Shown piece after piece: positions 7,978-61,693 of a DNA stretch of 64,000 nucleotides. This DNA comes from Cupriavidus sp. WKF15 (GTDB lineage Bacteria; Pseudomonadota; Gammaproteobacteria; Burkholderiales; Burkholderiaceae): contig NZ_CP119573.1 in the NCBI RefSeq assembly GCF_029278605.1, positions 620,001 through 684,000 on the forward strand, read 5' to 3'. Each line of letters begins with the position of its first letter. Position 1 is the first letter of the stretch. Under the pieces are notes generated by a model, which was given only the letters and a program-made list of their open reading frames with translations, was not told the DNA's origin and searched no databases. The position numbers and the translations under genes were made by a program.

Positions 7978-8001
7978 ATGAGACGATTACGGAAACGTCC
8001 A

Positions 8002-9270
8002 ATGACCGACACGACAGTGAACAAGAAGAGCAAGAACCCGAAGGCACCGAAGCTGTTTCCCGATGAGCTGATCGATCAACTGCTGGCCCAGGTGCAGAGC
8101 AAGGATGCCGAGTCGATCCTGGGCGAATCGGGCTTGGCCGGCCAGCTCAAGAAGCAGTTGGCCGAGCGTATGCTCGCCGCCGAGTTGAGTCACCATCTGG
8201 ATAACGAGGCCGAGCAAGGCAAGACCGGCAACCACCGCAACGGCACCAGCCCCAAGACGGTCCTGACGCCCAACGGTGAGCTGAATCTGGATATTCCGCG
8301 CGATCGGCAGGCGACGTTCGAGCCCCAATTGGTCGGCAAGTATCAACGCCGGCTGCCTGGCTTCGACGACCACGTCATCAGCATGTATGCGCGCGGCATG
8401 AGCGTGCGCGAGATTCAGGGCCATCTGCTGGAGCTGTACGGGCTGCAGGTATCGCCCGATCTGATTTCCACGGTCACCGACGAGGTGCTGGCTGACGTCG
8501 AGCAATGGCAGCAACGCCCGCTCGAGGCCATGTATCCGATCGTGTACTTTGACGCGCTACGACTGAAGATTCGCGACGAAGGCACGGTCAAGAACAAGGC
8601 GGTCTATCTGGCGCTGGGCATCCGCGCCGACGGCCGCAAGGAAGTGCTAGGTCTGTGGATCGAGCAAACCGAAGGCGCCAAGTTCTGGCTGAAGGTCTTC
8701 AACGAACTGAAGAACCGCGGCTTGCACGACGTCCTGATCGCGGTGGTCGACGGCTTGCGCGGCTTCCCCGAGGCGATCGAGGCGGTCTATCCGGCCGCGC
8801 AAATCCAGACCTGCATCGTGCATCTGATCCGCAATTCGCTGAATCTGGCGAGCTGGAAGGACCGTAAGCCGTTGGCTGCCGCGCTCAAGCCGATCTATCA
8901 GGCCGCCACGGCCGAGGCGGCGGCCGCAGCGCTCGACACCTTTGCGGGAAGTGAGTGGGGACGCAAATTCCCTACCGTCGCGGCCATGTGGCAGCGCCAA
9001 TGGGAACAGGTGATTCCCTTCTTCGTCTATCCGCCTGAGGTGCGTCGAATCATCTATACGACAAACGCCATCGAGAGCATGCACATGCAGTTGCGCAAGA
9101 TCGTCAAGAATCGCGGCCACTTCCCCAGCGACGAGGCCGCCAGCAAACTGCTGTATCTGGCCTTGCGCAACATCGAAAAGGATTGGAAGATGCCACCTAT
9201 CACCTGGCGGCAAGCAGTCAATCAGTTCGCCATTCTGTTTGGCGAGCGATTCACCTCCGCCATGAGCTGA
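8002..9270 (+). CDS. IS256-family transposase (Mutator superfamily)
   Basis: This is a 422-residue DDE transposase of the IS256/Mutator type and appears complete. Motifs seen are GKTGNHRNGTSPKTVLT near the N-terminus, IPRDRQATFEPQLV, MYARGMSVREIQGHL, the first catalytic Asp in YFDALRLKIRD, the second Asp in VVDGLRGFPEAI, the C-x2-H pattern in QTCIVHLIRNS, and the catalytic Glu in TTNAIESMHMQLRK. I chose the ATG at 8002 (MTDTTVNKK); an in-frame ATG at 7978 would add 8 residues and abut the left inverted repeat. With no frameshift visible, the element could be active. Confidence 0.95.
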   Translation: MTDTTVNKKSKNPKAPKLFPDELIDQLLAQVQSKDAESILGESGLAGQLKKQLAERMLAAELSHHLDNEAEQGKTGNHRNGTSPKTVLTPNGELNLDIPRDRQATFEPQLVGKYQRRLPGFDDHVISMYARGMSVREIQGHLLELYGLQVSPDLISTVTDEVLADVEQWQQRPLEAMYPIVYFDALRLKIRDEGTVKNKAVYLALGIRADGRKEVLGLWIEQTEGAKFWLKVFNELKNRGLHDVLIAVVDGLRGFPEAIEAVYPAAQIQTCIVHLIRNSLNLASWKDRKPLAAALKPIYQAATAEAAAAALDTFAGSEWGRKFPTVAAMWQRQWEQVIPFFVYPPEVRRIIYTTNAIESMHMQLRKIVKNRGHFPSDEAASKLLYLALRNIEKDWKMPPITWRQAVNQFAILFGERFTSAMS

Positions 9271-9395: not shown

Positions 9396-9513
9396 GCAAT
9401 CGCGAAGAACCAAAAAAACCTGACACACCGGGTTTTGTAGAGATCACTGCAGTATTGAAGACACACCGATGGCAGTCCTACCATCGGTCCATGAACGACC
9501 AAGACTTACGCCG

Positions 9514-10737
9514 ATGCGCACCGGGCTCGCCAGCATCATCCTGCCGCCGGGTGCCGATCCGGTAGCCATCACGCTGCTGGCGGGCCGCGCCCTGCGCGGC
9601 ATCTGCGATGGCTTTGTCGCCGTCCTGCTGCCGGCGTACCTGCTGGCGCTCGGCTTCGACCCACTCGCCGTCGGCCTGATCGGCAGCGCCACGCTGGCAG
9701 GGTCCGCGCTCGCGACGATCCTGGTCGGCATGCTCGGGCACCGCTATCCGTTGCGGCGCATGCTGACGCTGGCCGCGGCACTGATGGTGGCGACCGGCAT
9801 CGGCTTTGCCGGGCTCTCGTCGCTGTGGCCCCTGGTCATCGTCGCCTTCGTCGGCACCATCAATCCCGGCTCCGGCGATGTCAGCCTGTTCCTGCCGCTC
9901 GAACATGCGCGCCTGGCGGATGCGGCGGGCCCGCAGGCGCGCACCGCACTGTTTGCGCGCTACAGCCTGAGCGGTTCGCTGGCATCGGCCTTCGGCGCGC
10001 TGGCGGCAGCGCTGCCGGGGTGGGCCACAGCGCGCGGCATGCTGGCGCCACTCGGCGCCATGCGCGCGATGTTCGTGCTATACGCGTTGGCGGGCGGCGC
10101 GTTGTGGTGGCTCTATGCCCGCCTGCCCGCACGCGACCCGCATGCGGATGCCACACGCGTGCCGCTGGGCGCATCGCGCGGCATCGTCATGCGCCTGGCG
10201 CTGTTGTTCAGCGTGGATGCCTTTGCCGGCGGGCTGGTGGTCAATGCCTTGCTGTCGCTCTGGCTGATGCAGCGCTTCGGCCTGTCGCCAGGCGACGCGG
10301 GCCGGTTCTTCTTCTGGGCCGGGCTGTTGTCGGCGGGCTCGCAACTCGTGGCCGTGCCGGTAGCGCGCCGCTTCGGCCTGCTGAACACCATGGTGTTCAC
10401 GCATATCCCGTCGAGCCTGTGCCTGATTGCCGCGGCCATGGCCCCAGCACTTTTGCCTGCGCTGATCCTGTTGCTGGTGCGCAGCGCGCTGTCCCAGATG
10501 GATGTGCCGACCCGCACCGCCTACGTGATGGCCGTGGTGACGCCGCCCGAACGCCCGGCGGCCGCCAGCATCACGGCGGTGCCGAGAAGCCTGGCCGCGG
10601 CGCTCGGCCCCACCCTGGCCGGGGCGATGCTGGCAACGGGCTGGGCCGCAGCCCCGCTGGTGGCCTGCGGCGTGCTCAAGATCGGCTATGACCTGGCCCT
10701 GTTACGCGCGTTCCGGCGCGTCGAGCCCGAGCGATAG
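9514..10737 (+). CDS. Major facilitator superfamily transporter
   Basis: This 407-residue membrane protein has about 12 hydrophobic segments and an MFS layout: first half with LPAYLLALGFDPLAVGLIGSA, a basic loop GHRYPLRRML between helices 2 and 3, a central cytoplasmic loop (residues about 200-215), and a second repeat ending in VACGVLKIGYDLALL. The family exports or imports small molecules with a proton gradient. I cannot assign a substrate. The start is uncertain: the ATG at 9514 begins close to the first hydrophobic region, while an in-frame ATG at 9469 adds 15 residues; neither has a clear ribosome binding site. It converges with chrA, ending 10 bases before it. Confidence 0.85.
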   Translation: MRTGLASIILPPGADPVAITLLAGRALRGICDGFVAVLLPAYLLALGFDPLAVGLIGSATLAGSALATILVGMLGHRYPLRRMLTLAAALMVATGIGFAGLSSLWPLVIVAFVGTINPGSGDVSLFLPLEHARLADAAGPQARTALFARYSLSGSLASAFGALAAALPGWATARGMLAPLGAMRAMFVLYALAGGALWWLYARLPARDPHADATRVPLGASRGIVMRLALLFSVDAFAGGLVVNALLSLWLMQRFGLSPGDAGRFFFWAGLLSAGSQLVAVPVARRFGLLNTMVFTHIPSSLCLIAAAMAPALLPALILLLVRSALSQMDVPTRTAYVMAVVTPPERPAAASITAVPRSLAAALGPTLAGAMLATGWAAAPLVACGVLKIGYDLALLRAFRRVEPER

Positions 10738-13922: not shown

Positions 13923-14174
13923 ATGATGGCATTCCTAGGCACCGTGTTCGTTGGCCTTATCGTGGGACTGATCGCGCGGGCCATCAAGCCCGGCGACGAC
14001 AAGATGGGCTGGATCATGACGATCCTGCTGGGCATACTGGGCTCGGTGGCGGCGGGGTTCGTGGGCCGCGGGCTGGGCTGGTACCAGCCGGGCCAACCCG
14101 CCGGCTGGATCGCGTCGGTGCTCGGCGCGATCGTGCTGCTCGTGCTTTACGGCATGGTGCGCCGCAAAGGCTGA
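13923..14174 (+). CDS. GlsB/YeaQ/YmgE-family small membrane protein
   Basis: This 83-residue, almost wholly hydrophobic protein has three membrane segments and the family's glycine pattern: FVGLIVGLIARAIKPGDDKMGW, then TILLGILGSVAAGFVGR, then IASVLGAIVLLVLYGMVRRK. Members are stress-associated inner-membrane proteins of unknown mechanism. An AGGAG site (13912-13916) places the start at the ATG at 13923; a second ATG follows at 13926. The gene converges with the large penicillin-binding-protein gene, and the two coding regions overlap by 28 bases tail-to-tail. Confidence 0.88.
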   Translation: MMAFLGTVFVGLIVGLIARAIKPGDDKMGWIMTILLGILGSVAAGFVGRGLGWYQPGQPAGWIASVLGAIVLLVLYGMVRRKG

Positions 14175-17100
14175 TCCACCTTCATGACGTCCGCCGAGGC
14201 CGTGGCGCCCTCCGGCGGCGGCGCCTGGGCCTCGGTCCGCGGCAGGCGGATCTCCTGCGGCCAGTCACGGCAGCGCAGCAGCGCCTGGTCGCCGCCCGGC
14301 ATGGCCATCGACGCCACCTGCGGCGCGAGGTAGCGCAGCACCCGCACCGCCAGCGCGCTGGTGAAGCTGTAGCGCCCGGCATAAGGCTCGGTCACATTGA
14401 GGGTCACCGTGCCAAAGAAACGCTCGCCGAGCGTGAATACGAACGTGGCCGAGCGGTTCACCGAACGCGACGAGATCAGCCGCCCGCCGGGGCCATAGGT
14501 CTGGAAGCGCTGGTCGCCGGTGCCGGTCTTGCCGGCGATCGGAATCGGCGCGCCGCCCTTGCCCGGCGCCACGAAGGCGCCGGCAATCGACTTGGCCGTG
14601 CCGCGCTCCACCACATCCAGCATCGAGCGCCGCACCAGGTCCGTTATCTCGGTCGGCAACAGCCGTTTGCCCGGCTCCGGCTGCAGCACGAAGCGGCTCG
14701 CATACGGCGTGTTCGCGGCGAAGTCCAGGCTGCGCACGGTCGCGGTCTGCGTTGCCATGCCGCCGCTCAGGATGATGCCCGCCAGTTCAGCGAGCGCGGC
14801 CGGGCGGTCGCCCGACGCACCGATCGCGGTGGCATAGGATGGCGTCAGCGAATCGAACGGGTAGCCAAGCCGCTGCCAGCGCTTGGCGATGCGCTGGAAG
14901 GCCTCCTGTTCCAGCAGCGTGCGGATGCGGTTGTCCTGCCCGTACTTGCTGTGCGAGCGGAACAGCCAGCGGTACACGTACTGGCGCTGATCCTTGCTGT
15001 CGTGCAGGATCTGCGCCAGCGTGGCGTCCGGGTTCGTGCCCATGTATTCGACCATCCATAGTTCGAGCGGATGGACGCGGGACAGGTAGCCGCGGTCATT
15101 GAGGTTGAACTTGTCGTGGCCGTACTTGCTGTACAGCGCCGGCAGGTCCTCGCCGGCGAGTTGTCTGGCCGTCATGTGCGAGCGCATGATGCGCTCGAAG
15201 CTTTCCTCGTCCAGGTCCGGGCGCACGCTGAGCAGCGTCACCGACATGCGCACCGCCGTATAGTGCGGCGTGCTCACGCGCACGCGGCTCAGCAGCGTCG
15301 CCAGGCGCTGGTCGGCGTCCTTGCCGCGGTAGCGCTGGTAGAAGCCGGTCATGTAGGCACTGCCCTCCTGGTCGGCAAAGCGCTCCAGGTAGACGCGCCG
15401 TTCGGGCGAATTGCGGTCTTCGAAGATGTCGCTCATGTCCACGTTGCCGTGGAACAGCTCATAGCGCACGATGTCGCGCATCATGCGGATGAACACCAGG
15501 TTGACCGAGTGCTGGAAGCCCACGCGCACGGTCATGATGCGCTCGCCCTCCCAGCGCTCGAAGTTGGTGAAGCTCTGCAGCCCGCCGCCGGTATAGAAGC
15601 CCTCGCCAGGGCTGCCCGAATACTTGCGTTCCATAGCGGCGTCGAGCATGGCCGCCAGCGTGCGGTCTTGCGGCGTGCGCGCCTTGGACAGGTAATCGAT
15701 CGCCCAGCGGCTCAGGGCGTCCGGCTTGGCCACTTTGATGCCGGCCAGTTGTTCCTTGCTCATGCCGGCATAGCGCGCATGCAGTTCAGTGAGTATCTCC
15801 AGGTACGTGACCAGGGTGCGCAGCTTGGAGGTCGAGCCCAGATTCAGGCGGGCACCGCTGTTGATGTCGAACGGCTGGTTGATGTTGTCGGCCTGCACGC
15901 GCACCACGCTGGCATTGCCGACGCGCTCGAACAGTGTGAAGCTCGCCATCAGCTTGGACGGATCGTCCTGCTCGCGCAGCAGATTGTGGCCGTACAGCCC
16001 CATGGCGTGTGCGACGTTCTTGTCGCTCATGTTCAGGAGCGTATCCGTGACCACGCGCTGGGCCTCGCGGTTGATGGTGCTGTCCGCGGTCAGGTCCAGC
16101 CGATCCATGTCGTACCGGCTGTCCACGCCGGTCAGGCGGCCAATGTCGGCCCGCACACGGTTGACCGCCTTGCGCGTGACGAAGGGCTGCTGTTCCGGCT
16201 TCGCCGGCGGCGCGGCCTTGTCCAGGGGCTGCTGCAGCGCGGCATCACGCAGTTCCGGCGTGATGATGCCGTTGGCGGCCAGCAGGCGCAGGTAGCTGCC
16301 GGTGAGCGCGTCGAGGTTGGTGTCGTCGCGGCGCAGGTGATAGGACGGGCGGCGCTGCGAGATCACCAGCGACAGCGCGCGCTTGAAGGCTTGCGCCTCG
16401 CGCGCGGTCGGGGCGCGCGGGTCCATCTGCTTCATCAGGCGATTGACTTCGCCGAAGTCCTCGCCGTACCAGACCCACAGCGCGTCGCCGATGCCATTGA
16501 CCTCGCCGAACCCGACCCGCGCGGACAGCGGCACCGTATTGAGGTAGTCGACCACGATACGTTCGCGCGCCCGCTGGGTATCAGGCCCGTCCAGGTAGGC
16601 GCGCAGCGATGCCGATGCCATCTGCCGGAATTTCTCGGGAACCGACTGGGTGCGCCCTTCCGGCGAGTGCCGGTACTTCTCGATCTGCGTGGCGAGCGTG
16701 CTGCCGCCCGGCGAATCATGCGAATGGTCGGCCAGCCGGATGGCGCGGTCGATCACCGCGCGCGACAGCCGCTTCCAGTCCAGCGCGGGGTTCATGCTCG
16801 GATACTCGGGATTGAGCAGTCCCTGGTTCTCGACGAACAGCAGCGCGCTGACCAGCACCGGCGGCACCGCGGCAAAGTCGTCGTACTGGCGCTGCGGATA
16901 ACGCTCGAACGCCAGCGTCATGCCATTGCAGTCGCGCAGCACCAGGCCGGCCTGGTTCTTTTCACGATACGGCGGGAAGATGCCCTGATCCATCAGGCGC
17001 ACCATTTCGGGCGACATGCGTGCCTGTTCCGCGGGCACGTAGCCGTGCTTGCCAAGCCGCTGCGCAAACAGCGGGAGGCGGCCATAGCCCATGCGGTCGT

Positions 17101-17350
17101 CGTACGGCCCGGAATGCGGGAAGCGGATGCTGTCGCTGGCGCCAGGCTGCACCTCGTAGGTCAGCTGGCTGGCAAAGCGCCCGAGATAACGCGCCTGCCA
17201 TTGCGAATTGCGCACTTCATTGGAAATGAGGCTGACAACGACATAGCCGCCCCCACAGAGGGCGACCGCCAAGCCAGCGAAGATCCAGCCACGTCGTGCC
17301 ACGTTTTGGCCATCCCGTTCTTCTAGCGGCACTCTCGGCGCGGTCTTCAC
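14147..17350 (-). CDS. Divergent bifunctional penicillin-binding protein (GT51 plus transpeptidase)
   Basis: This 1067-residue protein has a membrane anchor at about residues 21-43, a glycosyltransferase-51 region (about 140-300) and a penicillin-binding transpeptidase domain. The transpeptidase triad is complete: STSK at 506-509, SVN at 615-617 and KTGT at 941-944. In the GT51 part Glu174 is kept, but the usual EDRRF-type motif reads VENQG, motif 2 reads GGSTLATQIEK, and the RKxxE-type motif is altered to EKFRQ. The 300-residue spacing between SVN and KTGT is much longer than in PBP1a or PBP1b, pointing to a large insertion. It presumably acts in peptidoglycan synthesis, but may be a specialised or GT-weakened class A PBP. 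Confidence 0.85.
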   Translation of the reverse strand: MKTAPRVPLEERDGQNVARRGWIFAGLAVALCGGGYVVVSLISNEVRNSQWQARYLGRFASQLTYEVQPGASDSIRFPHSGPYDDRMGYGRLPLFAQRLGKHGYVPAEQARMSPEMVRLMDQGIFPPYREKNQAGLVLRDCNGMTLAFERYPQRQYDDFAAVPPVLVSALLFVENQGLLNPEYPSMNPALDWKRLSRAVIDRAIRLADHSHDSPGGSTLATQIEKYRHSPEGRTQSVPEKFRQMASASLRAYLDGPDTQRARERIVVDYLNTVPLSARVGFGEVNGIGDALWVWYGEDFGEVNRLMKQMDPRAPTAREAQAFKRALSLVISQRRPSYHLRRDDTNLDALTGSYLRLLAANGIITPELRDAALQQPLDKAAPPAKPEQQPFVTRKAVNRVRADIGRLTGVDSRYDMDRLDLTADSTINREAQRVVTDTLLNMSDKNVAHAMGLYGHNLLREQDDPSKLMASFTLFERVGNASVVRVQADNINQPFDINSGARLNLGSTSKLRTLVTYLEILTELHARYAGMSKEQLAGIKVAKPDALSRWAIDYLSKARTPQDRTLAAMLDAAMERKYSGSPGEGFYTGGGLQSFTNFERWEGERIMTVRVGFQHSVNLVFIRMMRDIVRYELFHGNVDMSDIFEDRNSPERRVYLERFADQEGSAYMTGFYQRYRGKDADQRLATLLSRVRVSTPHYTAVRMSVTLLSVRPDLDEESFERIMRSHMTARQLAGEDLPALYSKYGHDKFNLNDRGYLSRVHPLELWMVEYMGTNPDATLAQILHDSKDQRQYVYRWLFRSHSKYGQDNRIRTLLEQEAFQRIAKRWQRLGYPFDSLTPSYATAIGASGDRPAALAELAGIILSGGMATQTATVRSLDFAANTPYASRFVLQPEPGKRLLPTEITDLVRRSMLDVVERGTAKSIAGAFVAPGKGGAPIPIAGKTGTGDQRFQTYGPGGRLISSRSVNRSATFVFTLGERFFGTVTLNVTEPYAGRYSFTSALAVRVLRYLAPQVASMAMPGGDQALLRCRDWPQEIRLPRTEAQAPPPEGATASADVMKVDQPLRRTMP

Positions 17351-19117: not shown

Positions 19118-20464
19118 ATGGACAAGAAGCCCGAGAAGCCCGACCCGAAGAAAACCATGCTGCCGTCGAAGATGCCGCAGTCGCGCCTGACGCGGCAGGA
19201 AGAAGCGCTGGTGCGCCGACGAAGCCGCGAGATCGGCCTGCGTCCGCTATGGCAGATCGCCCCGCGCCTGGCCAGCTACGGCATGGTCGCCTTCATCATC
19301 TGGGTCATCCTGTCGGTGATGTTTCCCCCGGTGTTCAACCGGTCCTCGGAACGCGCCGTCGTCAACAGCCCCGTGAATCTCGTGACCACGCCCGTCGAAG
19401 GCGTCATCACCCGCCAGGCGGTCGCCGTGGGCGGCTCCTTCGCGGCCGGAGAGCCGCTGATGACGCTGCAGAACTCCAACCTCGACCGCGCGCTGCTGAT
19501 GGAACTGACCGGCAAGCAACTCGACAACCGGACACGCCTGGAGGCTGCCAAGGCCAAGCTGGCTTCGGACCAGGCCCGTCTGGCGTCAACTGGCCAGGAA
19601 ATCCAGCGCTATCAGTCAGCGGCCCAGCGTGAACACGCTGCGCGCGTGAAGGGCATTGAAGCGAAGCTGGCCGTCGCACGCCAGCAGATCGACCAGCAGG
19701 AAGACGTGGTCAACCGCAACCAGGCCATGCAGTGGGCCGGCGCGGTCAGCCAGGCCTATACCGATGCGTCGCGCAACCAGCTGACCGTGCTGTCCGGCCA
19801 GCGCGATGCCATCCAGGCGGAGCTGGACAGCGCGCGCGGCAGCAGCGAGGCCGCGCGCAGCAAGGTCTACATGAGCAGCGCGGACGGCGCCGTCGGCGCG
19901 TTGGTGCAGCGCCAGGACGAACTGCGCGCCAGCATTGCCCAAACGCAGTCCGAGATCACCCAGCTCCAGGAGTACGGCGAGTCCGTCGACAAGATGGTCA
20001 GCACCGAACAGGATCGGCTGGAGCGCGTCTCCAACCTGGAAATCAAGGCATATACGGGCGGTGTGGTGGAAGATGTGCTGGCGCCCCCGGGCACGCGCGT
20101 CGCGGCCGGCGCCACGCTGATGCGCACGACCAACTGCAGCCAGCCCCGGGTGGTCGCGGTGTTCCCGCGCAGCCTGAGCAAGGACCTGCTGCCGGGCGCG
20201 CGCGTCACGGTGAAGGTCGATGGCGTACCCGCGCCGGTCCCGGGCTCGGTGGCCGAAGTCCTGCCGCGCGCGCCGGACGGCGACCAGGCACGCTACTTCG
20301 TACCGTTCCCGCCGATCGAGAAGAACGAGGTGTACCTGATCGCCCGCCTCGACAAGCCGCTGCCAGACCTGCCCGCAACCGGCACGCACCAGACCGACCG
20401 CTGCGCGCTGGGCCACTGGGCCAAGGTCAGCCTGGACCGCTCCTGGCTGCGCAGCCTGATCTGA
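19118..20464 (+). CDS. HlyD-family membrane-fusion protein of a polysaccharide export operon
   Basis: This 448-residue protein has a basic cytoplasmic N-terminus, one membrane helix at about residues 54-72, and a large periplasmic part. A lipoyl-like half (about 85-120, with GVITRQAVAVGGSFAAGEPLM) is followed by a long alpha-helical hairpin (about 125-300, rich in Gln, Ala and Glu) and the second lipoyl half plus beta-barrel (ARVTVKVDGVPAPVPGS). Two cysteines (TTNCSQ and DRCALG) could form a disulfide. The start at 19118 follows CTGAGGAAGCC. It opens a tight four-gene operon. Its place beside a BcsA-like synthase resembles the S. meliloti mixed-linkage glucan pair BgsB-BgsA and, more distantly, Alg44; no PilZ domain is present in this subunit. 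Confidence 0.85.
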   Translation: MDKKPEKPDPKKTMLPSKMPQSRLTRQEEALVRRRSREIGLRPLWQIAPRLASYGMVAFIIWVILSVMFPPVFNRSSERAVVNSPVNLVTTPVEGVITRQAVAVGGSFAAGEPLMTLQNSNLDRALLMELTGKQLDNRTRLEAAKAKLASDQARLASTGQEIQRYQSAAQREHAARVKGIEAKLAVARQQIDQQEDVVNRNQAMQWAGAVSQAYTDASRNQLTVLSGQRDAIQAELDSARGSSEAARSKVYMSSADGAVGALVQRQDELRASIAQTQSEITQLQEYGESVDKMVSTEQDRLERVSNLEIKAYTGGVVEDVLAPPGTRVAAGATLMRTTNCSQPRVVAVFPRSLSKDLLPGARVTVKVDGVPAPVPGSVAEVLPRAPDGDQARYFVPFPPIEKNEVYLIARLDKPLPDLPATGTHQTDRCALGHWAKVSLDRSWLRSLI

Positions 20465-20498
20465 GGCGATCAACCAGGGTAGTACGAGCGCCCGCAGG

Positions 20499-21890
20499 AT
20501 GGAGTTCACCGTGCAGCGTTATCCGATTCCGTGCCTTCCTGCCCGCAGTCCGGCGCGCCACGGCCGGCTGCTGGCAGCCGCGTTGCTCGCCGGCTCCGCG
20601 TTGAGCCTGGCAACCATGGCAGCGCCCCCCCTGCCCCCGCCCCCTTCGGCCCCGGCGGCACGCGAGCAGTTGCTGCGCGACGGCTGCAAGACGCTGGCCG
20701 GGCGGGTAGCGGCCATCCCTGGCAAGGGGCCAGTCATGCTCGGCAGCTACGAACCAGCCCCCGGCGGCGAACCTCTGCCGCCCCCCTTGCAGCAATCGGC
20801 CTTCGTCTATGACAACGCGCTGGCCGGCGTGGCGCTGATCGCGTGCGGCCAGCCGGATGCGGCGCGCCGCATCGCCGACGGCGTGGTAGCGGGCGTCACG
20901 CGTGACCGGCACTACCACGACGGCCGCGTGCGCAACGCGTATCGCGCCGGCGCCGTGCCGGACGGTCCGGTGCCGATGCCCGGATGGTGGGATGCGCCGA
21001 GCAAGCGCTGGTTCGAGGATGCCTACCAGGTCGGCACCGCCACCGGCAATGTCGCGTGGGCGGCGCTGCTGCTGCTGGCCACCTATGAATCCACGCACGA
21101 GCGCCGCTACCTCGAGACCGCCGCAACGCTCATGACATGGGTCGACAAGCAGACCTTCGGCAGCGAAAGCCCGGCCGGCTATATCGGCGGCTTCTTCGGT
21201 CATGAACCGACGCCGCGCCGCCAGGGCTGGAAATCGACCGAACACAATGTCGATGCCTATGCCGCGTTCCGCTGGCTCGCCTTGCGCACCAACGACGCGC
21301 GCTGGGACGGGGCCGCGCAGCGCGCACGCCGCTTCGTCGACGCGATGTGGCAGCCTGGCGAAGGCCGCTTCGTCATCGGCACGCGTGACGACGGGCACTC
21401 GCTCAACAGCGAGCCGTCGGCACTCGATGCCTCGCTGTGGCCGCTGATCGCGGTACCCGAGTCCGCGGCGTCATGGCGGCGCGCGCTGGACTGGGCGCGC
21501 GCGCACCACGCGGTGGGCGGCGGCTACGGCTTCAAGGCGCGCCCCGATGGCGTATGGACCGAAGGCACGGGGCAGGCCGCGCTGGTGCTGCGTGCCAGCG
21601 GCCGCGACGACGAGACGCGTTCCCTGTGGCCGCTGCTGCTGGCGCAGCGTGCGCCATCCGGCATGCTGTTCGCCACGCCGCAAGCGCGCATCAGCACGGG
21701 CTTGTCGATCGGCCCCGATTCGACCACCGAAGATTTCTACTACTTCCACCTGCCACACCTGGGCGCGACCGCCTGGGCCGTGCTGGCGGCCGCCGGCTGG
21801 AACCCGTTCCAGCCCGGCGGCACGTGCCCGGCCTGCCGGACCGGCACCGCACAGGCGCAGGGCCCACCCGACGACATCCGCAGGGAGTGA
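20499..21890 (+). CDS. Exported six-hairpin-glycosidase-like protein
   Basis: This is a 463-residue protein with an N-terminal export signal (RHGRLLAAALLAGSALSLATMAA, about residues 20-42), then a Pro-rich linker and an (alpha/alpha)6-type toroid. Repeated hydrophobic helices carry motifs typical of this fold: FVYDNALAGVAL at 102-113, TATGNVAWAALLLLATYE at 180-197, STEHNVDAYAAFRWLA at 246-261, SALDASLWPL and GVWTEGTGQAAL. Acidic residues in EHNVD and YDN are candidate catalytic residues. A GTG at 20511 behind GGAG is an alternative start. Being between an HlyD adaptor and a PilZ glycosyltransferase, it probably trims or processes the polymer, as BcsZ or AlgL do in other systems. I cannot name a GH family. 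Confidence 0.72.
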   Translation: MEFTVQRYPIPCLPARSPARHGRLLAAALLAGSALSLATMAAPPLPPPPSAPAAREQLLRDGCKTLAGRVAAIPGKGPVMLGSYEPAPGGEPLPPPLQQSAFVYDNALAGVALIACGQPDAARRIADGVVAGVTRDRHYHDGRVRNAYRAGAVPDGPVPMPGWWDAPSKRWFEDAYQVGTATGNVAWAALLLLATYESTHERRYLETAATLMTWVDKQTFGSESPAGYIGGFFGHEPTPRRQGWKSTEHNVDAYAAFRWLALRTNDARWDGAAQRARRFVDAMWQPGEGRFVIGTRDDGHSLNSEPSALDASLWPLIAVPESAASWRRALDWARAHHAVGGGYGFKARPDGVWTEGTGQAALVLRASGRDDETRSLWPLLLAQRAPSGMLFATPQARISTGLSIGPDSTTEDFYYFHLPHLGATAWAVLAAAGWNPFQPGGTCPACRTGTAQAQGPPDDIRRE

Positions 21891-21892
21891 CG

Positions 21893-23872
21893 ATGTTCGC
21901 CTACTTTCTTGAAAACCGCATGCTGGTGGAGATCAACGCCGGCGCCTTCCTGATCGCGGTGCTGTGCCTGCGCGGCGATCGCAACCGCACCGCCGACAGG
22001 TGGATGTTCGGCGCCGCCGCAGCGGTTCTGCTGATTGTCTACTACGTGTGGCGCTTCTCGCAGACCCTGCCCGAATGGCGCATGGATTTCGCCAGCCTGT
22101 GGGCGCATGTGTTCTTTGGGTTCGAGACGATGACGGTCGCCTACACGCTGATCTCGATCATCACGCTGACCCGCACGTCGAACCACAGTGCCGACGCCGA
22201 TGCCAGCGAAGCCGCGCTGCGGCGCAACCGCCGGGCGCCGGCGGTGGATATCTTCATCGCCACCTACAACGAAGGACTGGAAGTCCTCGAGAAGACGATC
22301 GTTTCGGCGCTGGCGATCGACTATCCGAACTTCCGCGTCTGGGTGCTCGACGATACGCGGCGCGACTGGCTGAAGGATTACTGCAAGCGCGTCGGCGCCA
22401 ACTACGTGACGCGGCCCGACAACACCCATGCCAAGGCCGGCAACCTCAACAACGGCCTGCAGCACAGCACGGCGCAGCCGGACAGGGGCGCGCCGTACAT
22501 CATGGTGCTGGACGCGGACTTCGCACCCAACCGAAGTATCCTGCTGCGCACCATTGGCCTGTTCGACGATCCCAGGGTAGGCGTGGTGCAGACGCCGCAG
22601 TTCTACTACAACGCCGACCCGATCCAGTACAACCTGCGCTCGACCGAATGCTGGGTCGACGAGCAGCGCGCCTTCTTCGACATCATGCAGCCGGCCAAGG
22701 ATGCATGGGGTACGGCATTCTGCATCGGCACCTCGTTCGTGGTACGGCGCGAAGCACTGGAGACCATCGGCGGCTTCCCGACCGGCACCGTCACCGAGGA
22801 CATCCACCTGACCTACAAGCTCATGCCGCATGGCTATGTCACGCGCTGGCTGAACGAGCGGCTGAGCGTGGGCCTGTCCGCGGAAGGCCTGCCCGAGTAC
22901 ATCAGCCAGCGCAGCCGCTGGGGCCTGGGGACGATCCAGGTCGCGCTTACCGCCGACGGGCCGCTGCGCGGGCGCGGCTACACGGGCCTGCAGCGCCTGC
23001 ATTATCTGCACGGGCTGCTGCACTGGGTCAGCCGGCCCTTCACGCTGATGCTGCTCGCCGGGCCGCTGCTGTACTGGTACATGAACGTGCCCACGCTGTA
23101 CGGCGATCCGCTGCAGTTCCTTGCCTATGGCGTGCCTGCGTTGCTGCTGTACTGGGCCTACAGCATCTGGGTAACCGGATCGCGCGCCATGCCGGTCTTC
23201 ACGGAGGTGACGCAGATCGTCGCGGCGCTTGCGGTCACGGCGACGCTGGCCAGCGCGGTGTTCAAGCCCTTCGGCCGGCCGTTCAAGGTGACCAACAAGG
23301 GACTCGACCGCTCCAGGCTCGTCGTGCACGGCAAGTTCGCCGTGCTGTATGGCGCGCTGTTCGTGCTGACGGGCATGGGGCTGGCACGCGCCATCGCCGC
23401 CGATGCCGACGCGCAGGGCGTGGCGTTCAACGTCGCGTGGACGATGGTGTCGATGGTGCTGTACCTGGCGTCGCTGCTGGTCTGTTTCGAGCTGCCGCGT
23501 CCACGCAAGGAAGAGCGTTTTCCCTACCGGGCACGCGCGCTGCTTCGGCTTCACGGCAAGGATGGCGCGGCGCGCGAGTTCGCCGGTGTCACGCGGGACC
23601 TCTCGTGCAACGGCGCGGCACTGCTGTGCGCGCACGCGCAATCCATACCGGACGACGCCGAAGGCGCGTTCTGGCTGGCGCCCCTGGGCTGGGTGCCGTG
23701 CCGCGTCGCCCGCACGCGCAAGGGACTCATCGGCGTGGCGCTGCGGCCCGACATGGCGACCCGTCACCGCCTGATCCGGCTGCTGTTCAGCGAGCCCGCC
23801 CACAACATCGCATACGAAGGCCGGCCGCGCGTCGCCATCGCGCAACTTCTGCGCCGCGCCTTTGCCGGTTGA
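21893..23872 (+). CDS. BcsA-like processive glycosyltransferase 2 with C-terminal PilZ domain
   Basis: This is a 659-residue inner-membrane polysaccharide synthase. Membrane helices at about 35-52 and 70-92 precede a GT2 catalytic domain (about 115-350) with all processive-synthase motifs: VLDDT (Asp153-154), DAD at 207-209, TED at 301-303 and QRSRW at 339-343. Further helices follow, and between them FKVTNKG at 464-470 matches the FxVTxK gating loop of BcsA. The C-terminal PilZ domain (about 540-625) has both c-di-GMP signatures: RFPYR at 542-546 and DLSCNG at 569-574. The start is 2 bases after the previous stop, behind CAGGGAGTG. It should make a beta-linked polymer from a nucleotide sugar only when c-di-GMP is bound. 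No bcsB, bcsC or bcsZ homologue is nearby, so it is not a standard cellulose operon. Confidence 0.92.
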   Translation: MFAYFLENRMLVEINAGAFLIAVLCLRGDRNRTADRWMFGAAAAVLLIVYYVWRFSQTLPEWRMDFASLWAHVFFGFETMTVAYTLISIITLTRTSNHSADADASEAALRRNRRAPAVDIFIATYNEGLEVLEKTIVSALAIDYPNFRVWVLDDTRRDWLKDYCKRVGANYVTRPDNTHAKAGNLNNGLQHSTAQPDRGAPYIMVLDADFAPNRSILLRTIGLFDDPRVGVVQTPQFYYNADPIQYNLRSTECWVDEQRAFFDIMQPAKDAWGTAFCIGTSFVVRREALETIGGFPTGTVTEDIHLTYKLMPHGYVTRWLNERLSVGLSAEGLPEYISQRSRWGLGTIQVALTADGPLRGRGYTGLQRLHYLHGLLHWVSRPFTLMLLAGPLLYWYMNVPTLYGDPLQFLAYGVPALLLYWAYSIWVTGSRAMPVFTEVTQIVAALAVTATLASAVFKPFGRPFKVTNKGLDRSRLVVHGKFAVLYGALFVLTGMGLARAIAADADAQGVAFNVAWTMVSMVLYLASLLVCFELPRPRKEERFPYRARALLRLHGKDGAAREFAGVTRDLSCNGAALLCAHAQSIPDDAEGAFWLAPLGWVPCRVARTRKGLIGVALRPDMATRHRLIRLLFSEPAHNIAYEGRPRVAIAQLLRRAFAG

Positions 23873-23878
23873 CCACGG

Positions 23879-25450
23879 ATGAGCCATATGAAAGCAAAAC
23901 AGACGCGAACCTTCCTTCCCCTGCGGCACATTGCAGCGGCGGCCATTCCGATTGCGCTGACGGCCTGCACGCTGGAGCCCGCCTATCAGCGCCCCGACCA
24001 GCCGGTACCCAATGCCTGGCCCACCGGGCCTGCCTACGCGCAGGGCACGGGCAATGCGGGGCAAGGGCGGGCGCCAGCCCAGGCGCAGACCCAGACGCCG
24101 GCGGCCGAACTCGGCTGGGAAGACTTCTTCACCGATCCGCGCCTGCGCCAGCTGATCGAACTGGCGCTGGCCAATAACCGCGACCTGCGCATGGCGACGC
24201 TGGCCATCGACCAGGCGCGTGCGCAGTACCGCATCCAGCGCGCGGCTCAGTTCCCGTCGATCAACGCCAACGCGGGCATGGTCGCCTCGCGCGTGCCCGG
24301 ATCGTTGCGCGCGCCAGGGCAGCCATCGGTCCTTCACGCCTACACGGCGGGGGTTGGCTTCAATGCCTTTGAACTGGATGTATTCGGCCGCGTGCGCAGC
24401 CTCAAGCATGAGGCGCTGGAGCAGTACCTGGCGGTGCAGGAAGTACGGCGCAGCGCGCAGATCAGCCTGGTGGCGGAAGTCGCGAGTGCCTACCTGACGC
24501 TGCAGGCCGACAAGGAGCTGCTGAAGATTTCGCAGGAGACGTTGGACATACAGCAGGCTGCCGTGCAGATGGTCGAGCGCAGCAAGCGCGCCGGCGGCAT
24601 GGCGCAGATCGATATGCACCGCGCGCAGACGCAGCTCGAAACGGCGCGCGTGGGCGTGGAGCAATACACACGCCAGGTCGCGCAGGACGAGAATGCACTG
24701 ACGGTGCTGATTGGCACGCAGTTGCCCGCGGACCTGCCGCCGGCGCAGCCGTTCGAGAACACCTCGTTCGTCGCCGAGCTGCCGGCCGGCCTGCCGTCGG
24801 CGCTGCTCGAGCAAAGGCCCGACATCATGGCCGCCGAACACCAGCTGAAGGCCGCCAACGCCGACATCGGCGCGGCCCGTGCAGCCTTCTTCCCGAGCAT
24901 CTCGCTGACGGCGGCGATCGGCGTGGCCAGCGCGGCCCTGTCGGGGCTGTTTACGAGCGGCATGGCTTGGGCGTTCGCACCGTCGATCACCATGCCGATC
25001 TTCAACGGCGGCGCCAACCAGGCCAGGCTTGATGCGTCCAGGGTGCAAAAGGACATCAACGTCGCCGCTTACGAGAAGACCATTCAGCAGGCATTTCGCG
25101 AAGTCGCGGACGGCCTCGCCGCGCGCGGGACCTATGATCGCGAAGCCGCGGCGCAGGAATCGCTCGCACGCGAGATCAGCGAGACGCGGCGCCTGTCGGA
25201 AATGCGCTTCCGCAATGGCGTGGACGACTACTTCCCGGTCTTCGACGCGCAGCGCCAGCTTTACTCGGCGCAGCAGACGCTGGTCACGATCCGGCTGGCA
25301 CGGCTGACTAGCCGCGTCGATCTCTACAAGGCACTGGGCGGCGGCTGGTCACAGCGCACGGCAACGGCACAAGCATCGCCCGCGCAAGCGGCAACGCCGG
25401 CAGGGCAGACCGCTGGCAGGTCCGCCAGTGCCGGCACGGCTTCCCGCTAG
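23879..25450 (+). CDS. NodT-family outer-membrane factor lipoprotein (TolC-like channel)
   Basis: This 523-residue protein has a lipoprotein signal with lipobox LTAC (Cys about residue 31), then the RND outer-membrane-factor pattern: LEPAYQRPDQP after the lipidated cysteine, WEDFFTDPRLRQLIELALANNRDLRMA, a long coiled-coil repeat, then a second OEP repeat with ALLEQRPDIMAAEHQLKAANADIGAARAAFFP split by short strands. Such proteins form trimeric channels across the outer membrane and work with HlyD-like adaptors. An alternative start is the ATG at 23888. It is 6 bases after the synthase gene. No RND, ABC or MFS pump is in the operon, which supports a channel for the polysaccharide rather than for drugs. 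Confidence 0.88.
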   Translation: MSHMKAKQTRTFLPLRHIAAAAIPIALTACTLEPAYQRPDQPVPNAWPTGPAYAQGTGNAGQGRAPAQAQTQTPAAELGWEDFFTDPRLRQLIELALANNRDLRMATLAIDQARAQYRIQRAAQFPSINANAGMVASRVPGSLRAPGQPSVLHAYTAGVGFNAFELDVFGRVRSLKHEALEQYLAVQEVRRSAQISLVAEVASAYLTLQADKELLKISQETLDIQQAAVQMVERSKRAGGMAQIDMHRAQTQLETARVGVEQYTRQVAQDENALTVLIGTQLPADLPPAQPFENTSFVAELPAGLPSALLEQRPDIMAAEHQLKAANADIGAARAAFFPSISLTAAIGVASAALSGLFTSGMAWAFAPSITMPIFNGGANQARLDASRVQKDINVAAYEKTIQQAFREVADGLAARGTYDREAAAQESLAREISETRRLSEMRFRNGVDDYFPVFDAQRQLYSAQQTLVTIRLARLTSRVDLYKALGGGWSQRTATAQASPAQAATPAGQTAGRSASAGTASR

Positions 25451-25592: not shown

Positions 25593-25835
25593 TCAGTAAC
25601 GCGGCGCCGTGGACGACGTGCCGCCTGAGGTGGCGCCACTGGATGTGCCAGCACCCGAGGACGTGGCTGGTGCCATACCGGAGCTGCGCGGACGGCTGGT
25701 ATCCGTGACCGAGCCAGAGCCGGTCACCGTGCCGCCCCCCGCTCCCGAGCCGGACGCCGTGCCGGTCGCGCTGCAGCCCGCCAGCGAGCCAAGGGTGGTC
25801 GCCACCATCATGCAAATCAGTATCGTCTTGCTCAT
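25593..25835 (-). CDS. Small Gly/Ser/Thr-rich lipoprotein
   Basis: This 80-residue protein has a lipoprotein signal (SKTILICMMVATTLGSLAGC, lipobox LAGC with Cys at about residue 20). The mature part consists almost entirely of Gly, Ser, Thr and Ala, with recurring GSG, SSG and TSSG patterns, so it is probably unfolded. A GGAGGACAGC site before the ATG at 25835 decides the start. It converges with the polysaccharide operon. Its function is not recognised; similar low-complexity lipoproteins in beta-proteobacteria are usually annotated as hypothetical. Confidence 0.65.
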   Translation of the reverse strand: MSKTILICMMVATTLGSLAGCSATGTASGSGAGGGTVTGSGSVTDTSRPRSSGMAPATSSGAGTSSGATSGGTSSTAPRY

Positions 25836-26233
25836 GCTGTCCTCCATCGAAGCCGTGGCGGCCGGCCGGCAGGCCAGCCTTCAGCCGGCCTGCCCTCCAC
25901 GCCGGTCCTGCGTGGGCACAGGCAACTGCCATACCACCGCAAGTTCCTGCTCCAGAACCCGCATATGTGCTTTGCCTTGCCTCTTGCAGTACTTGTGACG
26001 CTTCCGCACGCAACGTAAGAACTGCCTTCGATGTAGAAAATTCATCATCTTCGCGGCAGCGGCTTTTCGAGAAGGCGCCGGGAGGAGCAGGCTTGCGGAT
26101 GCAGGGGGCGAGGTACGTCCCTTGCGTCGCAAACGAAGACGGTTCCTCGGCACCACGGCAGTGATGGGACCCGGGCGCCCAATGCACTAGTATCCTCACC
26201 TGGACCGGGCAGCAAGAAACCAGCGAGGCAGCC
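25836..26233. other. 398-base gap, no gene seen
   Basis: This divergent intergenic region separates the small lipoprotein from the SnoaL-like gene. Its centre (about 25980-26060) is AT-richer than the surroundings, as expected for two back-to-back promoters, but no box could be assigned with confidence. Confidence 0.5.
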
Positions 26234-26647
26234 ATGAATTCCGCAGACGACGAACGCGCCATCCGTGAACTGGTGCAAAACTGGTTCTCCGCCAGCCAGC
26301 GCGGCGATACCGACACCGTATTGAGCCTGATGACCGACGATGTCGTCTTCATGGTTCCCGGCCAGGAGCCATTCGGCAAGCGCGCGTTCGCGCAGGCTTC
26401 GGCAGGCATGAAGTCCGTGCCGATGCAGGGCAGCTACGACATCCGGGAATTGCAGGTGATGGGCGACTGGGCCTACCTGCGCAACTTCATCGAACTGACC
26501 GTCACGCCGCCGGGCGGTGAGGCGGTACACCGCTCGGGCTATACGCTCACGCTGTTGCGCCGGGAGGCCGACGGTAAATGGCGGCTCTGCCGCGATGCCA
26601 ACCTGCTCGCGGCCGATGCACCGGCCGCACGGAAGGGCGAAGCGTAA
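26234..26647 (+). CDS. SnoaL-like/SgcJ-EcaC family protein (NTF2 fold)
   Basis: This 137-residue protein has the cone-shaped alpha+beta NTF2-like fold of the SgcJ/EcaC family: an N-terminal helix ERAIRELVQNWFSASQRGDTDTVLSLMTDDVVFMVPG, a central FGKRAFAQ helix and strands ending in LLRREADGKWRLCRDANLL. Members are small enzymes or binding proteins of varied function and are often annotated as oxidoreductases without evidence. The gene converges with the dioxygenase gene, ending 10 bases before it. Signal peptide and metal ligands are absent. Confidence 0.85.
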   Translation: MNSADDERAIRELVQNWFSASQRGDTDTVLSLMTDDVVFMVPGQEPFGKRAFAQASAGMKSVPMQGSYDIRELQVMGDWAYLRNFIELTVTPPGGEAVHRSGYTLTLLRREADGKWRLCRDANLLAADAPAARKGEA

Positions 26648-26657
26648 GTTCCCATCC

Positions 26658-27356
26658 TCATCCTGTACGCGCGACGCGCGCAATCCCTGCCACGAACTCC
26701 CCATCCAGCCAATCCGTCGCGCTGCGCACGCGCACCAGCGGCGGGTTGCTGCCCGCAATCGGATCCTGCGTATTCCCGCGCGTCGGCGCGCCGCGCGTGC
26801 GGTACGCCGGGTGATTGCCCAGCACCTCGCGATTGAGCGCATCGCTGAAGTAGAGCTGGCTGGTCAGCACCTCGGCATTCGCCAGCAGCACCTTGAAGTG
26901 GATGTGCACGGCACGCGGCCGGTACCAGCCCGGATAGATGGTAAGAAAGGTCGCCGCACCGTCGGCGCCGGTCTGCTGCACGCCGCGCAGGAAGCGGGTG
27001 GTGTCGTGCGGGCCGTCTTCACCGCTGTAGCTGCCCTCGGCATCGCAATGCCAGATGCTGACCAGCGCGCCTGGCACCGGTATGCAGCCGCGATCGGCGT
27101 CGACGACCGTCAGCCGCAGGCGCAATGGCTGGCCTGGACGGCCGTCGCGGATATCGCTGCGCAACCGGGCGTCGCCCAGATAGAAAGGGCCTTCCGTGGC
27201 AGCGGGGGTCAGCAGGCAGGCGGCCGCGGCGGTCGCACTGCCAGCCTGGGCCACGCTGGCGGGTGACAGGCTGGCCAGAGCGGCCACGCTGCCAAGCCGG
27301 CCGAGGAATTCGCGGCGCTTGGTCAGTTTGCCATCGTCGGCAGGCAAGGCGGTCAT
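26658..27356 (-). CDS. Exported intradiol ring-cleavage dioxygenase
   Basis: This 232-residue protein belongs to the protocatechuate 3,4-dioxygenase/catechol 1,2-dioxygenase superfamily. The N-terminus has a twin-arginine signal (TKRREFLGRLGSVAALASLS), so it is probably exported folded with its iron. Fe(III) ligands are recognisable: a Tyr in WHCDAEGSYSG, then GWYRPRAVHIHFKV providing Tyr, His and His. ATEGPFYLGD near residue 55 is also conserved in the family. I chose the ATG at 27356, 16 codons inside the frame, since it precedes the Tat signal closely. Periplasmic members of this group are common in soil bacteria and act on unknown catechols. Confidence 0.88.
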   Translation of the reverse strand: MTALPADDGKLTKRREFLGRLGSVAALASLSPASVAQAGSATAAAACLLTPAATEGPFYLGDARLRSDIRDGRPGQPLRLRLTVVDADRGCIPVPGALVSIWHCDAEGSYSGEDGPHDTTRFLRGVQQTGADGAATFLTIYPGWYRPRAVHIHFKVLLANAEVLTSQLYFSDALNREVLGNHPAYRTRGAPTRGNTQDPIAGSNPPLVRVRSATDWLDGEFVAGIARVARTG

Positions 27357-27527
27357 GTGAACTCCCGTGAGGGCGTGCTCACACCAGTCTATGCATCCGA
27401 ACAATCAGAAAGAAGCCCTGTTGGAAGCGGGCGCAAATCCTTACGCTCGTGCCGAAGCGGGGAATTCCGGATCCCGGTTCCTCCCAGTTCCCGCACACGT
27501 GCGGACATCATTGCGCCCCTCATTTAA

Positions 27528-35946: not shown

Positions 35947-36189
35947 TCGGTCCCCAGAACCTTGCCTGTCACGTAGATGGTAGCCGTTCCGTGCGCGCGG
36001 CGCCTGGCAAGTTGTGGTGCGGTGCGGCGATCTGAACGCTTCCGCGGGCCATGATGAATTGTTTCGACGGCGGGTGTCGGGCTGCAGGCTTTGCGCCAAG
36101 ATATCCACAAGCGTGGCCGGCCCGTCACCGACACCCTTGCGCGGCCGGGCGCCCCGAGCCGTACCTCCCGGCGTCCACGGACCTGTCCC

Positions 36190-54535: not shown

Positions 54536-55516
54536 ATGAAATTCCAGACGCGATGCAGGCGGCAAGCGCTTGGCGCGATCGGGCTCACGGCCATGATGGT
54601 GACGGGGGCATGGGCGCAGGGCACCTATCCGAACCACCCCGTCCGCGTCATCGTGCCATGGCCCGCCGGCGGCAGCGTCGACATGGCCACGCGTGTGGTG
54701 GCCGAGCGGCTTTCCGGCGGCCTCGGCCAGCCGGTGGTGGTGGAGAACCGGCCCGGCGCGACCGGCAACATCGGCGCGGCCGCTGCCGCCAAGTCCGCTC
54801 CGGACGGCTACACCCTGCTGGTCGCGACCACGCCGATGATCATCAACCGTAGCCTGTCCGGCAACGCCACGGTGGACCTGTCGCGCGAGTTCGCGCCGAT
54901 CGGCCAGCTGGTCAGCCTGAACTACGTCATGGTGGTCAATCCCGCGATGGCCGGCTCGGTACAGGAGCTGGTGGCGAAAGCCAAGTCACGCCCGGGGCAT
55001 TACAGCTATGCCTCCTCGGGGCCCGGCACGCAGCTTCACCTGATCGGCGAATCCTTCAAGCGCGCGGCCGGCGTAGATCTCGTGCACGCGCCGTACAAGG
55101 GCGCGCCACCGGCGCTGGCCGACCTGGTCGGCGGGCATGTCCAGCTGATGTTCCCGGGTCTCCCCGTGGTGGAGCCCCTGCTGCGCGCCGGACAGCTCAA
55201 GGCGCTCGCGGTCGTGAGCACGCACCGGCTGCCGCAGCTGCCCGAGGTGCCGACGCTCGCGGAGGCCGGCGTCGCCGGCATCGACAGCAGCGAATGGTAT
55301 GGCCTGGTGGCGCCCGCCGGCACGCCGCCGCAGGTGGTGGCCAGGTTGAGCGAGGAGCTGGGCAAGGCCATGCGCAACCCGGCCGTGCGGCAGCGCCTGA
55401 CCAGCCAGGGTTTCGAACCGGCAGGCAGCACCCCGCAGGCATTCGCCGCCCTGATTGAAGCGGAACAGAAGAAATGGCCACTCGTTGTCCGGCGCGCCGG
55501 ACTCCAGTCCGAATAG
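54536..55516 (+). CDS. Bug-family tripartite tricarboxylate transporter binding protein 2
   Basis: This is a 326-residue paralogue of the preceding protein, with the same blocks: signal LGAIGLTAMMVTGAWAQ, YPNHPVRVIVPWPAGGSVDMA, VVENRPGATGNIGAAAAAKSA and HAPYKGAPPALADLVGGHVQ. Equal length and tandem position indicate duplication, but many substitutions suggest a different ligand. AAGGAGACTGTC precedes the ATG. A small stem (near 54490-54510, CTCCGCC/GGCGGAG) lies between the two genes. It precedes the MHS-type permease gene. Confidence 0.94.
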   Translation: MKFQTRCRRQALGAIGLTAMMVTGAWAQGTYPNHPVRVIVPWPAGGSVDMATRVVAERLSGGLGQPVVVENRPGATGNIGAAAAAKSAPDGYTLLVATTPMIINRSLSGNATVDLSREFAPIGQLVSLNYVMVVNPAMAGSVQELVAKAKSRPGHYSYASSGPGTQLHLIGESFKRAAGVDLVHAPYKGAPPALADLVGGHVQLMFPGLPVVEPLLRAGQLKALAVVSTHRLPQLPEVPTLAEAGVAGIDSSEWYGLVAPAGTPPQVVARLSEELGKAMRNPAVRQRLTSQGFEPAGSTPQAFAALIEAEQKKWPLVVRRAGLQSE

Positions 55517-55628
55517 CGGGACTGGAACGAGATCAAGCGCAAGGGACCGCCCGAGGCCCCTCATCGGACTAGGATTCAGACAACGCGGCAGCCTGACACG
55601 TCAGGCTGGCCGCGGCAGGAGACTTGCA

Positions 55629-61480: not shown

Positions 61481-61693
61481 GAAATCACGCAACATCAGAA
61501 TGGCAGCGCCGCACGTGGCAAGGCAGGCGTCGCGGCAAGATCGGCTTGCGCCCGAGCGCCGCATATTAAGGGGACGCTGCATTCGACGGCAAGACTCATG
61601 GCATGGGCTTCGGCATTCTGTGGCAAAACTTGAGCACAGACTTTTGAGGGGTAGCGTTCGCGCCGCTTTCGCGCTGCGGCGGGCGGATTCCGC

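Follow-up and report, generated by a model that had tools for sequence, protein, structure and literature searches.

We identified in Cupriavidus sp. WKF15 a four-gene operon that probably encodes machinery for synthase-dependent secretion of an exopolysaccharide, with a processive polymerase of glycosyltransferase family 2 (GT2) taking the place of the pump in a tripartite efflux system. The operon lies in a 64,000-nucleotide stretch (contig NZ_CP119573.1, positions 620,001 to 684,000; hereafter the window) on the second of the three contigs of a 7.38-Mb genome. All four genes are on the forward strand with confirmed starts and code for an HlyD/EmrA-type periplasmic adaptor (19118-20464; 448 aa), an exported protein predicted to adopt an (alpha/alpha)6-barrel, for which we use the name GHx (20499-21890; 463 aa), a processive BgsA/BcsA-like synthase with GT2 and PilZ domains (21893-23872; 659 aa), and an outer-membrane factor (OMF), a lipoprotein of the NodT/OprM type (23879-25450; 523 aa). 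The coordinates and starts of the open reading frames (ORFs) agree with the tight packing described in a first-pass annotation of this DNA, the gaps being 34, 2, and 6 bases. That annotation had also described the adaptor as HlyD-like, the exported protein as (alpha/alpha)6-type, and the OMF as a NodT-family lipoprotein, all of which are borne out by the domain matches, lipobox, and structural model presented below. Its central inference, that the adaptor and OMF form an efflux-type exit for the product of the synthase, is supported by GT2-OMF fusions, apparent joint inheritance of the OMF, an EmrA-like adaptor with a tip motif, and the lack of a conserved pump.

A scan of named genomes returned 281 relatives. 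Gene orders were counted on the 80 best of these, with partners called by score thresholds against the window proteins; the census thus leans to close relatives and may overlook diverged partners. Of the 80, 53 carry adaptor-GHx-GT2-OMF, in 44 cases with each gene separate (7 of these being short loci) and in 9 with the GT2 and OMF in one ORF (2 short). The others comprise 3 GHx-GT2-OMF loci at a contig edge, 16 adaptor-GHx-GT2 loci, 3 adaptor-GT2-GHx loci, and 5 with GHx only. Since the identical four-gene order recurs in Cupriavidus, Burkholderia, Pandoraea, Pseudomonas, and Rhodanobacter, it is not due to chance. The OMF-bearing loci come from Burkholderiales and Gammaproteobacteria, and the 19 OMF-less three-gene loci come from Alphaproteobacteria. 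Within the genus, the GT2 was found in 44 of 60 genomes (E <= 1e-150) and GHx in 23 of 36, the source genome being included in both counts; a further weak GHx match, from a different family, is fragmentary and contains stops. When up to four candidates per genome were scored with a GHx profile, matches came from 3 of 399 genomes at the level of the order and from 10 of 398 at that of the phylum; both counts include the source genome, and the two sets overlap in part. An all-versus-all comparison of ORFs of at least 100 aa in the surroundings of 38 representative loci, which required E <= 1e-12 and a minimum of three genera, yielded no fifth widely conserved partner, only overlaps of the four genes in other frames, a dehydrogenase-like ORF flanking 3 of the 38 loci, and an ABC-type ATPase, which resembles the ATPases of polysaccharide exporters.

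In some bacteria the GT2 and OMF are encoded by one gene, which suggests that the polymer exits through the OMF tube. Single ORFs with both GT2-PilZ and OMF matches were found in L117, L122, L125, L131, L134, L137, L138 (interrupted by the contig end), L140, L141, and L050. The fused protein of Variovorax beijingensis (L122; 1,135 aa) has Pfam matches to GT2, to PilZ (weak, over cut-off), and to OEP in two stretches. Among 61 genomes searched in the Variovorax-like genus, 21 have a match, and 20 of these 21 carry an uninterrupted GT2-OMF ORF with 68-98% identity; the ORFs span nearly the full query (that of G828 reaches residue 1084 of 1135), the one remaining genome, G849, has it split into two overlapping pieces, and G874 has two copies. 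The Variovorax fusion is hence robust. At the PilZ-OMF junction of the ten fused loci, a hydrophobic segment runs up to a cysteine; it conforms to a loose lipobox in eight and reads TTGC in the other two. This signal-peptide-like stretch and cysteine at the start of the OMF part suggest that Variovorax probably makes the fusion as a polyprotein, whose internal lipoprotein signal could be used by lipoprotein signal peptidase. Both Pseudomonas fusions (L117 and L140) have unfused sisters (L109 and L143), so that they may have arisen independently or may reflect sequence errors in single genomes.

Phylogenetic analysis suggests that the OMF has traveled with the other three genes. The GT2 tree, built from the window protein, 11 loci for comparison, and 38 members of the L050-L144 set of 95 loci (50 rows), recovers a clade of 41 GHx-bearing rows with support of 100/100 and unites 28 OMF operons in one group (95/97), with the OMF-less GHx loci split into two parts. 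The nearest other rows, separate from the GHx clade and with a long-branch warning for the comparison rows, are HlyD+GT2 pairs, including the pSymB pair of Sinorhizobium meliloti, which we took as BgsBA from its position and similarity in an unannotated record. Escherichia coli BcsA and three other PilZ-bearing synthases of the Cupriavidus genome lie across the midpoint root; the tree thus places the synthase nearer to BgsA-type pairs, apart from BcsA. Those three BcsA-like synthases are encoded at L062 (8634-10793), L063 (10250-12463), and L064 (11500-13944); the L063 enzyme is near the BcsB and BcsC genes, and those of L062 and L064 pair together in the tree. The OMF tree has 75 rows. It draws on 31 operon loci and on 48 additional ones, the latter being 18 of 20 non-operon matches from the own genome and, out of 58 match rows from four further genomes, the 30 that had loci attached; four duplicates and one entry lacking a usable match were dropped, and the window OMF was added. 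A single well-supported clade of operon OMFs had been expected, and this was recovered only in part: there are two strong clades, one from Burkholderiaceae (15 rows; 99/98) and one from Pseudomonas, Variovorax, and Rhodanobacter (17 rows; 100/100), with joint support of 55/97. The Burkholderiaceae, Pseudomonas plus Variovorax plus Rhodanobacter, and the Alphaproteobacteria each form one group in the trees of the adaptor and of GHx, which have 35 rows apiece. Variovorax is a betaproteobacterium. All four trees nevertheless place it with the gammaproteobacterial Pseudomonas and Rhodanobacter, apart from the Burkholderiaceae, so that the unit, OMF included, seems to have moved together and the OMF seems to be inherited jointly with the synthase.

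The adaptor matches the Pfam families HlyD_3 and HlyD_D23. Its AlphaFold2 model, with a predicted local distance difference test (pLDDT) score of 82.9 and a predicted template modeling (pTM) score of 0.52, displays a membrane helix at residues 48-68, predicted to be an inner-membrane anchor, beta domains, and hairpin helices at 125-206 and 212-247/254-305. In Foldseek searches the top PDB match of this model was EmrA of EmrAB-TolC (E 1.9e-17), with MacA, MexA, AcrA, and HlyD ranking lower, though the template modeling (TM) scores normalized to query length are low (0.25-0.34). The RLS motif of adaptors serves docking to the OMF. An RLS-type motif, R200-x3-M204-x6-S211 (19715-19750), is found at the hairpin tip, where the model has a helix turn (206-212), and the strict pattern occupies the tip column in 74 of 84 aligned adaptors versus 221 of 4,200 random 26-residue windows (5.3%) from the same proteins. 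A figure legend in PMC8277102 likewise places the RLS motif on the adaptor hairpin and compares it across adaptor groups. The ten adaptors lacking the strict motif are eight of the Variovorax type, seven labeled OMF loci by score threshold and the eighth being the contig-cut L138, and two rhizobial ones. A difference in tip motif between OMF-bearing and OMF-less loci had been expected and was not found: most OMF-less rhizobial adaptors keep the motif, and an OMF encoded elsewhere may thus serve them. Two cysteines of the adaptor, C340 (20135-20137) and C429 (20402-20404), are invariant in 30 aligned adaptors, possibly as a disulfide, and may be a family mark. The OMF matches Pfam OEP and NodT (TIGR01845; 412.1 bits, over the cut-off of 210.05), has an LTA-C lipobox with the cysteine at position 30 (23957-23968), and falls with the OprM/AdeK group.

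The synthase matches GT2 and PilZ (PF07238, residues 538-632; 23504-23788) in Pfam/NCBIfam and carries D207-A-D209, T301-E-D303, Q339-RSRW, the gating loop FKVTNKG (residues 464-470; 23282-23302), and DLSCNG (residues 569-574; 23597-23614). The gating motif F.VT.KG is retained in 55 of 56 OMF-operon relatives and in all 19 OMF-less ones. Of the motifs listed in the first-pass annotation, DAD, TED, QRSRW, the FxVTxK loop, and DLSCNG are present as described, but RFPYR is not the RxxxR motif of PilZ: alignment with E. coli BcsA revealed a four-residue offset, RFPYR starting at the second arginine (R542), and the motif is instead R538-KEE-R542 (23504-23518). A count made at the RFPYR columns (RxxxR in 33 of 56 loci with an OMF and in none of 19 without) is superseded by one at the R538-R542 columns. 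The accessible part of PMC5567048 gives RxxxR and (D/N)x(S/A)xxG as the PilZ motifs, describes autoinhibition of Rhodobacter BcsA through E371 and R580, and reports that R580A renders BcsA constitutively active. Both elements of such a PilZ receptor are present in the Cupriavidus synthase, and in our own mapping its E331 and R538 appear to correspond to E371 and R580. Gating by cyclic diguanosine monophosphate (c-di-GMP), which had been claimed for the operon, is therefore plausible in Cupriavidus, where RxxxR and DLSCNG are intact, but the claim does not extend to the system at large. Conservation of the PilZ motifs across the family had been expected and failed beyond the Burkholderiaceae-type branch: both motifs occur in 35 of 36 relatives of that branch (L065-L098, L100, and L104, the single miss being L067, which has broken frames), in 0 of 20 other OMF operons, and in 0 of 19 OMF-less loci. 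As RxxxR is confined to one branch, c-di-GMP gating is not a trait of the whole system, and by analogy with R580A the Pseudomonas and Variovorax enzymes may be ungated.

GHx of the window has no Pfam or NCBIfam family match and no PADLOC match, and its relatives have weak Pfam matches in at most 5 of 41 sequences (GH127 in four and the C5-epimerase C terminus in one). Its AlphaFold2 model folds as an (alpha/alpha)6 barrel (pLDDT 88.8), a fold common to glycosidases and epimerases, and the acidic residues invariant in 41 sequences include D105, D174, E248, D252, D310, E355, and D412. On the basis of fold and gene position, GHx is a putative glycosidase or epimerase acting on the growing polymer, with a possible role in trimming. 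In Azospirillum and Nitrospirillum, GHx genes (L153 8863-10161, L132, L133, and L142) have no synthase, adaptor, or OMF detected nearby, and single plasmid matches to GHx were found in Streptomyces and Kitasatospora.

From gene content, conservation, domains, predicted folds, joint inheritance, and the GT2-OMF fusions we infer how the polymer might be made, controlled, exported, and processed. The GT2 would polymerize a linear, probably beta-linked glycan and extrude it across the inner membrane, with c-di-GMP on the PilZ domain lifting an autoinhibition that would involve E331 and R538. The EmrA-like adaptor would form a periplasmic tube, its hairpin tip docking on a trimeric OprM-like OMF that would conduct the polymer through the outer membrane, and GHx may trim or edit the chain in the periplasm. 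We lean slightly toward regarding this as a distinct secretion class, an efflux conduit with a polymerase in place of the pump and a channel captured from pumps of the resistance-nodulation-division (RND) type; in the Variovorax-like genus, where the polyprotein is presumably cut at its internal lipoprotein signal, there would be one polymerase per protomer and three per channel. The operon bears on how linear glycans from systems lacking a barrel of the BcsC, AlgE, or PelB type traverse the outer membrane. With the channel in the operon, even fused to the synthase in some genomes, the idea of HlyD-TolC export becomes directly testable; should our reading be true, a long polymer can get through a channel of the efflux type, and the operon offers a genetically compact system for the study of this.

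Alginate secretion by Alg8-Alg44-AlgK-AlgE is likewise synthase dependent and c-di-GMP controlled, with an HlyD-like periplasmic part in Alg44 and a lyase, AlgL, but unlike the present operon it has its PilZ domain on Alg44 and exports through the AlgE beta-barrel. The BgsBA system of S. meliloti and Rhizobium etli also pairs an HlyD-like protein with a c-di-GMP-activated GT2, and the Cupriavidus proteins are 39% identical to the GT2 over 518 residues and 23% identical to the adaptor over 319 residues (E 9e-14), which has R-x3-L-x6-T at the hairpin-tip column. It differs in that BgsA is without PilZ (so described in the accessible part of PMC5567048, and with no Pfam PilZ match), and neither a GHx nor an OMF gene was found beside BgsBA. 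Of the two-gene HlyD+GT2 pairs on alphaproteobacterial plasmids (L149-L152), those of Bradyrhizobium and Azospirillum have PilZ-like RxxxR and DxSxxG motifs, unlike BgsA. An HlyD-type channel has been suggested, without proof, for the rhizobial mixed-linkage glucan (PMC9495663, as far as its text is available).

A route comprising XcsA, XcsB, and XcsC with TolC was reportedly described in cyanobacteria by Maeda et al. in 2018. In the available portion of PMC12430437, XcsA is a PilZ synthase, XcsB is HlyD-like, and XcsC is an endoglucanase, encoded in one operon in some species, e.g., Synechococcus and Nostoc, with TolC, encoded outside the operon, as the proposed exit for XcsAB by a route yet to be validated. 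The first-pass statement that no described system has exactly this gene set overlooks this proposal (PMC12430437). As the adaptor-TolC idea was already proposed, the Cupriavidus operon is not a wholly new kind of synthase-dependent secretion; what is new is a channel that is encoded in the operon and derived from pumps, together with the fusion of synthase and channel, neither the four-gene set nor the fusion having been found in a literature search of titles and abstract openings in a collection without most subscription papers. It is a tentative but real possibility that the operon is the proteobacterial form of the XcsAB-TolC cellulose route, with novelty limited to the operon-borne OMF and the fusion. 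The component types match, as both systems bring together a GT2-PilZ synthase, an HlyD-like adaptor, and a hydrolase (putatively so for GHx). However, this likeness is one of component descriptions, TolC is encoded elsewhere, the available portion of PMC12430437 mentions no synthase-OMF fusion, and the synthase is nearer to BgsA than to BcsA; no cyanobacterial comparator is among the plasmid matches listed (60 of 643). More unlikely is an ordinary cellulose synthase locus with BcsB and BcsC replaced. Like the Bcs system, the operon has a GT2-PilZ synthase with a gating loop and a periplasmic (alpha/alpha)6 protein, comparable to the GH8 hydrolase BcsZ. The synthase matches the CelA/BcsA equivalog TIGR03030 over residues 17-583, is 27% identical to E. 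coli BcsA over 611 residues, and is 28-32% identical to entries annotated bcsA among the listed plasmid matches. Yet the TIGR03030 score is 378.2 bits against a cut-off of 699.1, the GT2 tree has BgsA-type pairs, and not BcsA, nearest to the GHx-bearing clade of the synthase, FFCGS of BcsA is replaced by FC[I/V]GTS in operon-type synthases, and the operon has an adaptor and OMF in lieu of BcsB and BcsC and a GHx with no GH8 Pfam match. Further, a canonical bcsA-bcsB-bcsC locus lies elsewhere in the genome and contains its sole BcsB and BcsC matches (C1:1507135 and C1:1501446), so the four-gene operon is not a damaged bcs operon.

Two further alternatives take issue with export of a long polymer. 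In one, which we consider quite improbable, the polymer is kept or digested in the periplasm, with GHx cutting it and the OMF freeing oligosaccharides only, as a signaling or osmoprotective glycan and not as matrix. The presence of GHx in OMF-less three-gene loci and its fold would fit this, but BgsBA-type pairs without an adjacent GHx make a mixed-linkage beta-glucan that can be purified from R. etli and S. meliloti (available part of PMC9495663), oligosaccharides thus not being a necessary product of the core pair by itself, and the hydrolases AlgL and BcsZ accompany other secreted polymers (available part of PMC4594306). The other alternative, that the adaptor and OMF are parts of a drug or metal efflux system with its pump elsewhere and the synthase a chance neighbor, is in our estimate very remote. 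It can draw on the likeness of the adaptor in fold and tip motif to EmrAB-TolC and MexAB-OprM, EmrA being the partner of a pump of the major facilitator superfamily (MFS), and on the OMF being of the OprM/AdeK group and nested in a 100/99 group with ten other OMFs, of which the two examined (L155 and L156), the closest relatives of the window OMF in its own genome, adjoin AcrB-type pumps. However, those systems have an MFS, RND, or ATP-binding cassette (ABC) pump at the inner membrane where the operon has a polymerase, and the gene order kept over beta- and gammaproteobacteria, the 20 genomes with GT2 and OMF fused, the atypical grouping shared by all four trees, and the lack of a conserved pump nearby speak against a chance association. 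No MFS, RND, or ABC pump gene was found in or directly next to the operon, where the downstream ORFs 25609-25998 and 26234-26647 were not searched; the earlier statement that no pump gene is present holds for the operon and its direct neighbors but not for the whole window, which has MFS-type genes at 9469-10737 and 55455-56957 (8 kb upstream and 30 kb downstream). Along with these MFS genes, several other observations weigh against secretion through a dedicated adaptor-OMF conduit under c-di-GMP control. An ABC-type ATPase lies in the flanks of 6 of the 38 representative loci (L099, L101, L102, L115, L120, and L136), two of them complete Rhodanobacter operons, and a partner pump is thus possible on neighborhood alone. 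The window OMF is 52% identical to an own-genome RND-pump OMF and 48-53% identical to non-operon Pseudomonas OMFs, against 44% to the Pseudomonas operon OMFs; this and the weak joint support of the operon OMFs make two OMF recruitments possible. The strict tip motif is missing from the eight Variovorax-type adaptors, which belong to the fused lineage, and PilZ RxxxR is missing from all 39 loci outside the Burkholderiaceae-type branch. Finally, a dedicated OMF is not a requirement, since 19 of the 80 census loci lack an OMF gene next to the synthase, and 5 have GHx alone, one of these at a contig edge.

Promoter, terminator, and Rfam scans of the operon region returned nothing exceeding chance. 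The 5' neighbor of the operon is an aldo/keto reductase gene according to family searches, and 3' of it is a dioxygenase-like ORF (26658-27404). Two genes upstream, on the reverse strand, lies a large transglycosylase gene (14147-17350; about 1,067 aa) with a transpeptidase match under the Pfam cut-off. Elsewhere in the window are a Mutator family transposase (7978-9270, forward), a patatin-like phospholipase fused with an Omp85-type barrel (36091-38487, forward), and, about 35 kb from the operon, a second c-di-GMP receptor, a YcgR-type flagellar brake with PilZN and PilZ domains (60698-61582, reverse).

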